Assembly: GCA_028867135.1 (NCBI GenBank) | Contig: JAGWGW010000008.1 | Span: 1 to 40,119, forward strand | Reading direction: 5' to 3' | Origin: Microcaldota archaeon | GTDB lineage: Archaea > Micrarchaeota > Micrarchaeia > Micrarchaeales > CABMGC01 | Length of the DNA stretch: 40,119 nucleotides | Shown here: piece by piece, positions 20,266 through 23,715 of the stretch | How the letters are laid out: each line of letters begins with the position of its first letter | How positions within the stretch are numbered: position 1 is the stretch's first letter | Program-made: the position numbers and the translations under genes | Notes under the pieces: model-generated | Database searches by the model: none | The model's input: the letters and a program-made list of their open reading frames with translations, nothing else | Told to the model about the DNA's origin: nothing

Positions 20266-20886
20266 TCACTTCTTCTCCTCCGCGGCGGGCGCTGCTGCTG
20301 GTGCCGCTGCCGCTGGCGCAGCCGCTCCGCCTCCTGCTCCAGGCTTCTTTTCAGACTGCGTAGCTGCCTTTGCCGCAGCCTCAACTGTCTTCTTCATGAC
20401 TCCCACCGTAGCGCCGGTCCTTCCGGTGCTTCTTGTCCTCTGTCCGCGAACCTTCTGGCCGTACCTGTGCCTGAAGCCTCTCCATGTCTCCATCTTTATG
20501 TCGCTGTCTATGTCGTTCCTTACCTTTACGATGAGGTCGGTGCCAACAAGATGCATGTCTGCTCCGGAGTCGTGCTCCTTTCTCCTGTTAAGCATGAATG
20601 GGGGTATGTTCACAGCCTTCGGGTCCTTTACCACAGCCTCTATCTTCGAGAGCTGCTCATCGCTGAGCGAGCCTATCTTCGTCTCGGGGGGTATCCCGTG
20701 GGTCCTTTCTATGGAAAGGGTGAGGGCGCTGGCGAGGTTCTTTCCTATACCCTTTATCTGGTTCAGCGCCTTGGAGATCCTGAATGAGCCGTTGATGTCC
20801 CTTCCCGACATCCTGACTATGCTCTCCTCCTTGCGAGGCTCCTTCTGCTGCTTCTCCTCCTTTTGTTCCTTGTCCTTATCAGCCAA
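20266..20886 (-). CDS. rps13: 30S ribosomal protein uS13 with N- and C-terminal extensions
   Basis: ISKALNQIKGIGKNLA...GFRHRYGQKVRGQRTRSTGRTGATVGV. Start could be TTG at 20886 or ATG at 20811. Confidence 0.93.
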   Translation of the reverse strand: MADKDKEQKEEKQQKEPRKEESIVRMSGRDINGSFRISKALNQIKGIGKNLASALTLSIERTHGIPPETKIGSLSDEQLSKIEAVVKDPKAVNIPPFMLNRRKEHDSGADMHLVGTDLIVKVRNDIDSDIKMETWRGFRHRYGQKVRGQRTRSTGRTGATVGVMKKTVEAAAKAATQSEKKPGAGGGAAAPAAAAPAAAPAAEEKK

Positions 20887-21060
20887 TAAACCACTGAATG
20901 TAATGCTCTGAGATTTACAAAAAGCTATTAACAATGGCAAAACAGCTTAAAATAGCTTTCTATAGCCTGAAACGAGCGGTGATAATCGACATTTGCGCTT
21001 GCAATGTTTTTAAGCCTTGTGGGTCGGATCTTGCAGGCGATTCCTATCATTGAACATGAA

Positions 21061-21180
21061 CGCCAAGGTTGGGATTTTCATAAACAATGGTTTATTTTGA
21101 ACCCAAAAGACTCTTGCGAGTCATGCGCTTCCGGGTATTCGTTTCCAGGCGCACGCGTTACCGGATTCTGCCACCTTGGC
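21061..21180 (-). tRNA. tRNA-Ser(GGA) with two predicted introns (anticodon loop and T-loop)
   Basis: Acceptor GCCAAGG/CCTTGGC, discriminator G, variable arm GACTC-GCAA-GAGTC, anticodon stem TGCGC/GCGCA, T-stem TTGGG/CCCAA. Removing 21130-21142 and 21075-21095 restores loops CTGGAAA and TTCAAAT. The D-stem is weak (A12-C23 mismatch). Confidence 0.8.
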
Positions 21181-21209: not shown

Positions 21210-22673
21210 TTAAGCTTTCCTCCTCTCGGTCTTCTTCGACTCAGGCCTTACCGATGGAAATAGGAGCACCTCCTTTATCGATACCTTGTCAGTGAGCAGC
21301 ATCACAAGCCTGTCTATACCCATTCCGAAGCCTGCAGTTGGAGGCATTCCGTATTCTATAGCCTCTAGGAAGTCCTCGTCTATCGGCGGCATCTCCTCGT
21401 CTCCCTTCTTCTTCTCCAGGGCCTGGGCCTCGAACTTCCTCCTCTGCTCAACAGGGTCCGTGAGTTCCGAATACACGTTCACGAGCTCCTTTCCGCACAC
21501 GAAGAGCTCGAACCTCTCGCTCAGCCTCTTGTCCTTCCTGCTGTCCTTTGTCAGAGGGCACATGTACGAGGGGTAATCAACGGCGAACGTTGGGTCCTTT
21601 ATCGTGCCGAGTACATACTTGTCGAAGAGCGCGTCTGCCACGTGGTAGTTGCTCTTTACCGCGACCTTCAGCCCTTCTTTCTCCGCTATCTTCGCTGCTT
21701 CCTTGTCATCGATATCTGCTATGTCTATTCCGGATCTCTTCCTTATCTCCTCCACGAAGTGTATCCTCTTGAAAGGGGCCTTGAAGCTCACCTTCTGCCC
21801 TTGGTACGTTATCTCGCCTGAGTTGAAGAGGTGCTTTACGAGGCCGCTGAGCATCTCCTCGGTCAATATCATGTACGTGTTGTAATCTCCGTACGCTTCG
21901 TAGAACTCCAGCATCGTGAATTCAGGGTTATGGGTAGCGTCTATGTCCTCGTTCCTGAAGTCCTTGCAGAACTCGTACACCTTCTCAAGGCCGCCGACAA
22001 TCAGCCTCTTCAGGTACAGCTCGTCAGCTATCCTCAGGTACAGGTCCGTATCGAGGGCGTTGTGGTGCGTTATGAACGGCTTCGCGTTCGCTCCTCCGTA
22101 CACTGGCTGGAGTATCGGCGTCTCGACCTCAAGGTAGCCTTTGGCGTCGAGGAAATCCCTTATGTACCTTATGGCCTTGGCCCTTGTCCTGAATATGCTC
22201 CTTGCATCAGGGTTCATGATCAGGTCAAGGTACCTCTTCCTGTACCTTACCTCTGTATCGGACAGGCCGTGGAACTTCTCAGGGAGGAATCTCAATGACT
22301 TTGAGAGCATCGTTATCTCGCTCGCCTCTATGCTCTTCTCTCCTCTTTCGCTCTTGATGACCTTGCCCTTTATTCCAAGTATGTCGCCTATGTCCGTAAG
22401 CTTCAGCACATCTATTGCCTTGTCCGGGGCTGTGCCGCTCCTAGCCAGCACCTGTATCTTTCCGGATCCATCCAATATGTCGAAGAAGAATAGCTTGCCC
22501 ATGCCCCTGAATCTCATGACCCTTCCCGCTACGCTTGCCTGCTTGCCCTCGAATTTTTCAAAATTGTCAGTTATATCTCCCGCATGCTGCAGTTGCCCAT
22601 ACGAGTAAGGATACGGATCGATGCCGAGCTCCCTCAGCCTTTTCAACTTTTCAAGCTTTGTTTCATCGGCCAT
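21210..22673 (-). CDS. lysS: Lysyl-tRNA synthetase, class II
   Basis: Class II motifs: RYRKRYLDLIMN, VETPILQPVYGGANAKPF, FRNEDIDATHNPEFTMLE, GFGMGIDRLVMLLT. Confidence 0.95.
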   Translation of the reverse strand: MADETKLEKLKRLRELGIDPYPYSYGQLQHAGDITDNFEKFEGKQASVAGRVMRFRGMGKLFFFDILDGSGKIQVLARSGTAPDKAIDVLKLTDIGDILGIKGKVIKSERGEKSIEASEITMLSKSLRFLPEKFHGLSDTEVRYRKRYLDLIMNPDARSIFRTRAKAIRYIRDFLDAKGYLEVETPILQPVYGGANAKPFITHHNALDTDLYLRIADELYLKRLIVGGLEKVYEFCKDFRNEDIDATHNPEFTMLEFYEAYGDYNTYMILTEEMLSGLVKHLFNSGEITYQGQKVSFKAPFKRIHFVEEIRKRSGIDIADIDDKEAAKIAEKEGLKVAVKSNYHVADALFDKYVLGTIKDPTFAVDYPSYMCPLTKDSRKDKRLSERFELFVCGKELVNVYSELTDPVEQRRKFEAQALEKKKGDEEMPPIDEDFLEAIEYGMPPTAGFGMGIDRLVMLLTDKVSIKEVLLFPSVRPESKKTERRKA

Positions 22674-22686
22674 AGTAAGCACCATG

Positions 22687-22833: not shown

Positions 22834-23715
22834 TTGATGAAGGCAAAGGATATGATGATTGAAGGCAAACTGCTCTCGTTCCTGACAAGCGATGGGGTGA
22901 GGCTGAACGGCTTCCTTTTCAGCGGGGGGAGCAAGCGCGCATGCATAATAAACGTGCACGGCATGACAGGCAACTTCTACGGCATAAGGCAGATGCTCCT
23001 GGCGCAGATGCTCGGAAAGAGGGGCGTCTCCTTCTTTTCGATAAACACAAGGGGGCATGACGCCGTATCGAATTACAGGATAGAGGACGGCAGGAAAAGC
23101 ACAAGGGTAAGGGCGGGCACCAACTTTGAGAGGTTCGAGGACTGCGTATTCGACATAAAGGCAGCGATAGGAGTCGCGGAGAGGATGGGCTTCAGGAAGA
23201 TAATGCTCTGCGGTCACAGCACGGGCTGCCAGAAGATCGCATACTACCAGTACAAAAGCAAGGACAGGCGGGTAAGTTCCCTCATACTCCTGGGCCCTGC
23301 GGACGATTACAGCATTGCGAAGAGAGACCTTGGCAGGAATTTCGGCAGGGTCGCGGCGCTTTCAAGGAAAATGGTGTCGAGAGGAAGAGGCGATGAGCTG
23401 GACAGGAGAATTCCTTCAGGATTCTCCGCGCAGCGCTTCGATTCGACCGTCAACCAGAGGAGGATAGAGAGCAGGATATTCAACTACGACGGTAAGTTGA
23501 GGGAATTCGCAAGCATAAGGATACCGATCCTTGCAATATTCGGCAGCAAGGAGGAATTCGCCGCCAAGAGCGTGGGCACTTACCTAAAGATATTGGGTAG
23601 AAGGACCAGGTCCGCCAACTACAGGCCACAGATAATCAGGGGCGCTGACCATTCATTCAAGGGTCACGAGCTGGAGCTGGCGCAGCGCATAGCGGAATGG
23701 GCGAAGCAGGTGTGA
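22834..23715 (+). CDS. Alpha/beta hydrolase
   Basis: NVHGMTGNF oxyanion region, CGHSTGCQ nucleophile elbow, C-terminal GADHSFKGHE His. Confidence 0.8.
   Translation: MMKAKDMMIEGKLLSFLTSDGVRLNGFLFSGGSKRACIINVHGMTGNFYGIRQMLLAQMLGKRGVSFFSINTRGHDAVSNYRIEDGRKSTRVRAGTNFERFEDCVFDIKAAIGVAERMGFRKIMLCGHSTGCQKIAYYQYKSKDRRVSSLILLGPADDYSIAKRDLGRNFGRVAALSRKMVSRGRGDELDRRIPSGFSAQRFDSTVNQRRIESRIFNYDGKLREFASIRIPILAIFGSKEEFAAKSVGTYLKILGRRTRSANYRPQIIRGADHSFKGHELELAQRIAEWAKQV

Follow-up and report, generated by a model that had tools for sequence, protein, structure and literature searches.

The window, the whole stretch of 40,119 nucleotides analysed here, carries on its minus strand a genuine 120-nt tRNA-Ser(GGA) gene from a micrarchaeon that has two very short introns and lies between a lysyl-tRNA synthetase-like gene and an ORF that contains ribosomal protein uS13 (Table 1). 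Read 5' to 3', with the introns in round brackets, the gene is GCCAAGG TG GCAGAATCCGGTAACGCG TGCGC CTGGAA(ACGAATACCCGGA)A GCGCA TGACTCGCAAGAGTCTT TTGGG TTCAAA(ATAAACCATTGTTTATGAAAA)T CCCAA CCTTGGC G. When both introns are removed in silico, ARAGORN recognizes the resulting 86-nt sequence as tRNA-Ser(gga), the predicted splice junctions joining ...GGGTTCAAA to TCCCAAC in the T-loop and CTGGAA to AGCGCA in the anticodon loop. The spliced cloverleaf has a long variable arm (class II) and G73, features that support assignment to the serine isotype.

Table 1 Features of the Ser(GGA) locus (positions in the window) and three other tRNA genes with T-loop introns in the same genome (G000)
Feature	Location	Strand	Remarks
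ORF containing ribosomal protein uS13	20266..20940	minus	downstream, same strand; named by eye from sequence
tRNA-Ser(GGA) gene	21061..21180	minus	120 nt including two introns; 86 nt after splicing; discriminator G73; no CCA encoded
T-stem 3' strand CCCAA	21069..21073	minus	from sequence
T-loop intron, 59/60, 21 nt (ATAAACCATTGTTTATGAAAA)	21075..21095	minus	strict hBHBh'; in-silico splicing, shuffles, relatives
T-stem 5' strand TTGGG	21102..21106	minus	T49-65 and T50-64 compensatory in relatives
Anticodon-loop intron, 37/38, 13 nt (ACGAATACCCGGA)	21130..21142	minus	relaxed bulge-helix-loop; in-silico splicing, relatives
Anticodon GGA	21144..21146	minus	anticodon stem TGCGC/GCGCA after removal of the 13-nt intron
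Acceptor stem 5' strand GCCAAGG	21174..21180	minus	pairs with CCTTGGC, 21068-21062
Lysyl-tRNA synthetase-like gene	21210..22685	minus	upstream, ending 29 nt before the tRNA gene; named by eye from sequence
tRNA-Ala(GGC)	L039 (G000:C31:57257-57512)		T-loop intron 28 nt
tRNA-Arg(TCT)	L037 (G000:C31:76546-76804)		T-loop intron 13 nt
tRNA-Leu(CAA)	L035 (G000:C31:40238-40535)		T-loop intron 13 nt

The gene neighborhood is partly shared with relatives. Of 108 loci in relatives (many of them truncated), 65 have uS13 on the same strand, with its match beginning within 500 nt of the 5' end of the tRNA, and 37 have a lysyl-tRNA synthetase homologue; this conserved neighborhood supports the orthology of the loci. 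The homologous locus and gene order recur in named Micrarchaeota genomes, in line with a micrarchaeotal origin of the window. The nearest match comes from isolate REEA68 (locus L077, the same gene as L043 of the congeneric genome), with 80% identity in uS13 and 86% in the lysyl-tRNA synthetase. At its end, the uS13 ORF has a long tail rich in alanine and proline (GGGAAAPAAAAPAAAPAAEEKK).

Within the T-arm, the two strands of the T-stem flank 28 nt, TTCA-AAA-TAAAC-CATT-GTTTA-TGAA-AAT, which form a bulge-helix-bulge (BHB) with a 4-bp central helix, two 3-nt bulges and a 5-bp inner helix, all pairs being Watson-Crick. If each bulge is cut behind its second nucleotide, 21 nt are removed and the loop TTCAAAT is restored. 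No other strict Watson-Crick BHB of the 5+4+5 form occurs in the 40-kb window, whichever strand is read, and none was present in five shuffles of the window (one strand each); the central and inner helices were regained in 12 of 200,000 shuffles of the T-loop intron alone. The T-loop BHB is not a product of chance. The original prediction had placed these features at coordinates that agree throughout with the minus-strand sequence, and its Ser(GGA) identity, its strict hBHBh' fold and its 21-nt excision leaving TTCAAAT are all borne out. Its 86-nt mature product is reached as well, although only when a 13-nt intron in the anticodon loop is also taken out. The 59/60 intron stands, and the second intron is an addition to what had been described.

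This second intron has a counterpart in all 82 homologues analyzed (10-24 nt long). In these genes, CTGG (positions 32-35) lies opposite a CCNG-like stretch of the intron, in register among the relatives and with 3-nt bulges on both sides; here, the central helix is CTGG/CCCG, with a mismatch at U33 (the second pair) that is shared by 63 of the 82. A register with a 2-nt 3' bulge (CTGG/CCGG) was considered and dropped, the relatives keeping the 3-nt one (CTGG/CCCG, bulge GAA). Judging by these alignments, the anticodon-loop intron forms a relaxed bulge-helix-loop, a kind of motif that splicing endonucleases of broad specificity accept (PMC4033280, PMC6379350). When the T-loop intron alone is removed, ARAGORN reports Pro(ggg), as would be expected if the 13-nt intron were excised in a different register to give Pro(GGG) or another isotype. 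Such an assignment appears exceedingly improbable given G73 and the class II variable arm, both of which fit serine, the canonical 37/38 cut, which yields CTGGAAA with the anticodon GGA, and the retention of the CTGG/CCNG register and the 3-nt bulges in relatives. The Pro(ggg) call on the present gene arises where ARAGORN puts the 13-nt intron in the wrong place. The Thr(ggt), Ala(ggc) and Pro(ggg) calls that ARAGORN makes on two-intron relatives were likewise rejected as isotypes and traced to misplacement of an anticodon intron of 11-13 nt.

As the original prediction had anticipated, the gene escapes standard tools: ARAGORN makes no call on the unspliced sequence, and the Rfam tRNA model, run on the whole genome, scores the locus at 28.4 bits (E 3.1e-4), below the gathering score of 29. 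Since both searches miss the gene at default thresholds, their silence is not counted as evidence against it. The expectation that no separate intact copy exists was also upheld: the tRNA search yielded 41 places in the genome, the remaining serine genes being GCT and TGA, and neither the Rfam tRNA search nor a DNA search with the gene detected a second Ser(GGA) in the assembly, which is 93.9% complete. A second copy in an assembly gap is possible but unlikely. Arguably, a gene missed by these programs in an incomplete assembly could be a decayed tRNA pseudogene, its T-loop broken by a random hairpin-forming insertion, with Ser(GGA) supplied by another gene; this scenario is very unlikely, given that no other Ser(GGA) was found in the genome and given the pattern of conservation in relatives.

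Matches to the gene were detected in 39 of the 40 genomes searched (its own and 39 relatives, one of them congeneric), and a pattern scan of GTDB species genomes produced 78 loci, with titles mostly of Micrarchaeota along with a few Marsarchaeota MAGs and one 'uncultured archaeon'. The homologue set consists of 82 distinct complete Ser(GGA) genes of Micrarchaeota. An intron is located exactly at 59/60 in 72 of these genes; the recurrence of the insertion at the same phosphodiester bond, with the BHB kept, argues against a pseudogene. These introns are 13-43 nt long and widely different in sequence, and 10 of the 82 homologues have no insert and a plain TTCAAAT loop, the same as the spliced loop of the present gene. 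A complete 4-bp central helix with the exon TTCA is formed in 70 of the 72 (mean 1.24 and maximum 8 in 2000 shuffles), and in the inner helix 31 of the 32 distinct rows form the first pair and 30 the second (16.0 and 14.9, respectively, in shuffles), figures that are descriptive and overstate the statistical weight because the relatives share ancestry. The exon half of the central helix is invariant among the homologues, so that two-sided covariation is impossible there; in the inner helix, 16 of the 32 distinct rows have G-C as the first pair, 8 have A-T and 6 have T-A, that is, the changes are compensatory.

The congeneric genome is the most informative of these and also speaks against a pseudogene: its exons are identical at 86 of 86 positions while the introns turn over, its T-loop intron being 28 nt long with a different sequence. 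Identical exons around a changed intron fit selection that would act on the spliced product. In the congener (L043), only 3 of 4 central-helix pairs form in the strict frame, which requires that this genome tolerate a relaxed motif. The same comparisons bear on the possibility that the insertion is never spliced and the mature tRNA carries an enlarged, hairpin-bearing T-loop. The hairpin is indeed stable in the minimum-energy fold. However, the insert varies in length and is missing from part of the homologues, and conservation tracks the form of an endonuclease substrate, not a particular sequence in the loop; moreover, with a T-loop of 28 nt the usual contact between the D-loop and the T-loop would be blocked. 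We consider an unspliced insertion highly improbable; splicing of Ser(GGA), itself deduced from comparison, is strongly supported by the data on relatives. The presence, absence and replacement of introns among close relatives with identical exons open the gain and loss of introns to direct testing in this lineage, which has a broad-specificity endonuclease.

The genome encodes RtcB (E 1.6e-165), the enzyme by which archaea usually ligate tRNA, along with a single PF01974 endonuclease, a 385-aa ORF. Residues 11-385 of the latter align with the epsilon2 EndA of ARMAN-2 (4FZ2; E 6.7e-148), and its Y233, H249, K280 and K158 correspond in the alignment to the catalytic triad of 4FZ2 (Y236, H251 and K282) and to K161, the lysine of the ARMAN-specific loop (ASL) (PMC6379350). 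By these correspondences, the enzyme is a three-unit epsilon2 endonuclease of the ARMAN type. With both enzymes encoded, the expected pathway would consist of cuts at both motifs followed by RtcB ligation. Almost certainly, then, the locus is a Ser(GGA) gene whose two introns would be excised by the epsilon2 endonuclease and whose exons would be joined by RtcB, transcription, cutting and ligation all being predicted from the sequence. The product would be the tRNA-Ser(GGA) of this genome, required for UCU and UCC codons. In the precursor, the T-stem would run on into the BHB, with TTCA, the universal T-loop letters of the exon, paired to the intron TGAA and the TAAAC/GTTTA hairpin of the intron capping the structure; the endonuclease would cut both bulges between nucleotides 2 and 3 and would also cleave the weaker bulge-helix-loop of the anticodon loop, and ligation of the halves by RtcB would yield the 86-nt tRNA with a normal T-loop.

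Position 59/60 is among the published noncanonical intron sites of archaeal tRNAs (reviewed by Yoshihisa 2014, PMC4090602), and T-loop BHBs have been described in general terms (PMC6379350). The published 59/60 introns resemble the one reported here in the insertion point, the BHB logic and the co-occurring 37/38 intron; the emphasis of that review is on Crenarchaeota and Nanoarchaeota, in which such introns abound, whereas the present host is a micrarchaeon whose endonuclease is of the epsilon2 form. The original prediction named Thermoproteales as the chief archaea with T-arm introns; the host here does not belong to Thermoproteales. Further parallels are ARMAN-1 and ARMAN-2, which are listed with multiple-intron tRNAs and whose epsilon2 enzyme cleaves noncanonical introns (PMC4033280); this work (Fujishima 2011 and Hirata 2012) is reviewed in PMC4033280 and PMC6379350, with a separate structure paper (PMC12397907). 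The likeness extends to the common phylum, the three-unit enzyme with the catalytic triad and the ASL lysine, and the combination of strict and relaxed BHB substrates. Given that 59/60 introns, two-intron ARMAN tRNAs and epsilon2 are all published, the Ser(GGA) gene represents a further case of a known type. The less expected part is the lineage-wide recurrence of introns at 59/60 in different tRNAs. In the freely accessible literature, no account was found of this site as a hot spot shared by several isoacceptors, either in Micrarchaeota or in this order, an absence that is weak evidence.

In the same genome, tRNA-Ala(GGC), tRNA-Arg(TCT) and tRNA-Leu(CAA) also contain T-loop introns (Table 1) and, like Ser(GGA), go unrecognized by ARAGORN as long as the T-loop intron is left in place. 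The Ala(GGC) intron starts and ends as the Ser(GGA) one does (TAAAC...GTTTATGAA). Across the order, a pattern for the 59/60 motif produced 202 matches in 79 genomes compared with 19 for the reversed pattern; elsewhere in the class, matches are sparser. Among the loci inspected individually are Ser(GGA), Ser(CGA), Ala(GGC), Arg(TCT), Arg(CCT), Arg(TCG) and Lys(TTT). Position 59/60 is a lineage-wide hot spot, used in at least 8 isoacceptors. tRNA genes that are invisible to ordinary finders make a genome seem to be without these tRNAs, which bears on completeness estimates and on codon-usage arguments for Micrarchaeota.

Some introns resemble each other across tRNA species of one genome. Among examples chosen for looking alike, Arg(CCT) and Arg(TCT) of genome G036 share an identical 13-nt intron, and near-identical introns are found in Ser(CGA) and Arg(TCT) of G061 and of G002, in Arg(TCT) and Arg(TCG) of G026, and in Arg(CCT), Ala(GGC) and Arg(TCG) of G032. 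Among the matches listed, the within-genome similarity of introns is 0.437 compared with 0.404 for permuted labels (P about 0.0005, with base composition uncontrolled), and for pairs at least 70% similar within a genome the permutation P is 0.03 (short introns, base composition likewise uncontrolled). These resemblances suggest possible copying of introns between isoacceptors of one genome, as in Thermoproteales, where large-scale transposition of tRNA introns is known (PMC4033280, PMC4090602). In both cases, introns resemble each other between tRNA species within a genome; the cases differ in that Thermoproteales belong to a different phylum and that the evidence here comes from short introns and a permutation test in which base composition is uncontrolled. 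Tentatively, and with a likelihood that we place slightly short of even, 59/60 could be a portable landing site for short BHB introns in this order: the exon half of the splice motif would be ready-made because nearly every tRNA has TTC(A/G)A, and introns would copy among Ser, Ala, Arg, Leu and Lys tRNAs within a genome, aided by the broad-specificity epsilon2 enzyme.

Several other tRNA loci depart from the ordinary layout. In eight relatives' loci (L158, L160, L165-L167, L169, L171 and L177), tRNA-Ser(CGA) has a T-loop intron and a second short intron, the latter on the 5' side of the anticodon loop (CCAGA...GGCGA|ACTCGAGATCTGG), at a noncanonical position near 31/32. In the source genome, a tRNA-Leu(TAA) without an ARAGORN call (L040, G000:C26:9152-9423) has a D-loop apparently split by a short hairpin insert (ATGGCATTGTGCCA...), and the reverse strand of L182 (G000:C31, about 23050-23200) contains a probable tRNA-Trp(CCA) whose anticodon loop holds a long intron, a gene reported by ARAGORN as Arg(cct) with a 67-nt intron. 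Finally, a truncated tRNA-Thr(TGT)-like fragment (L038, G000:C5:7437-7690), possibly a pseudogene, is located near an intact tRNA-Thr(TGT) on the same contig.
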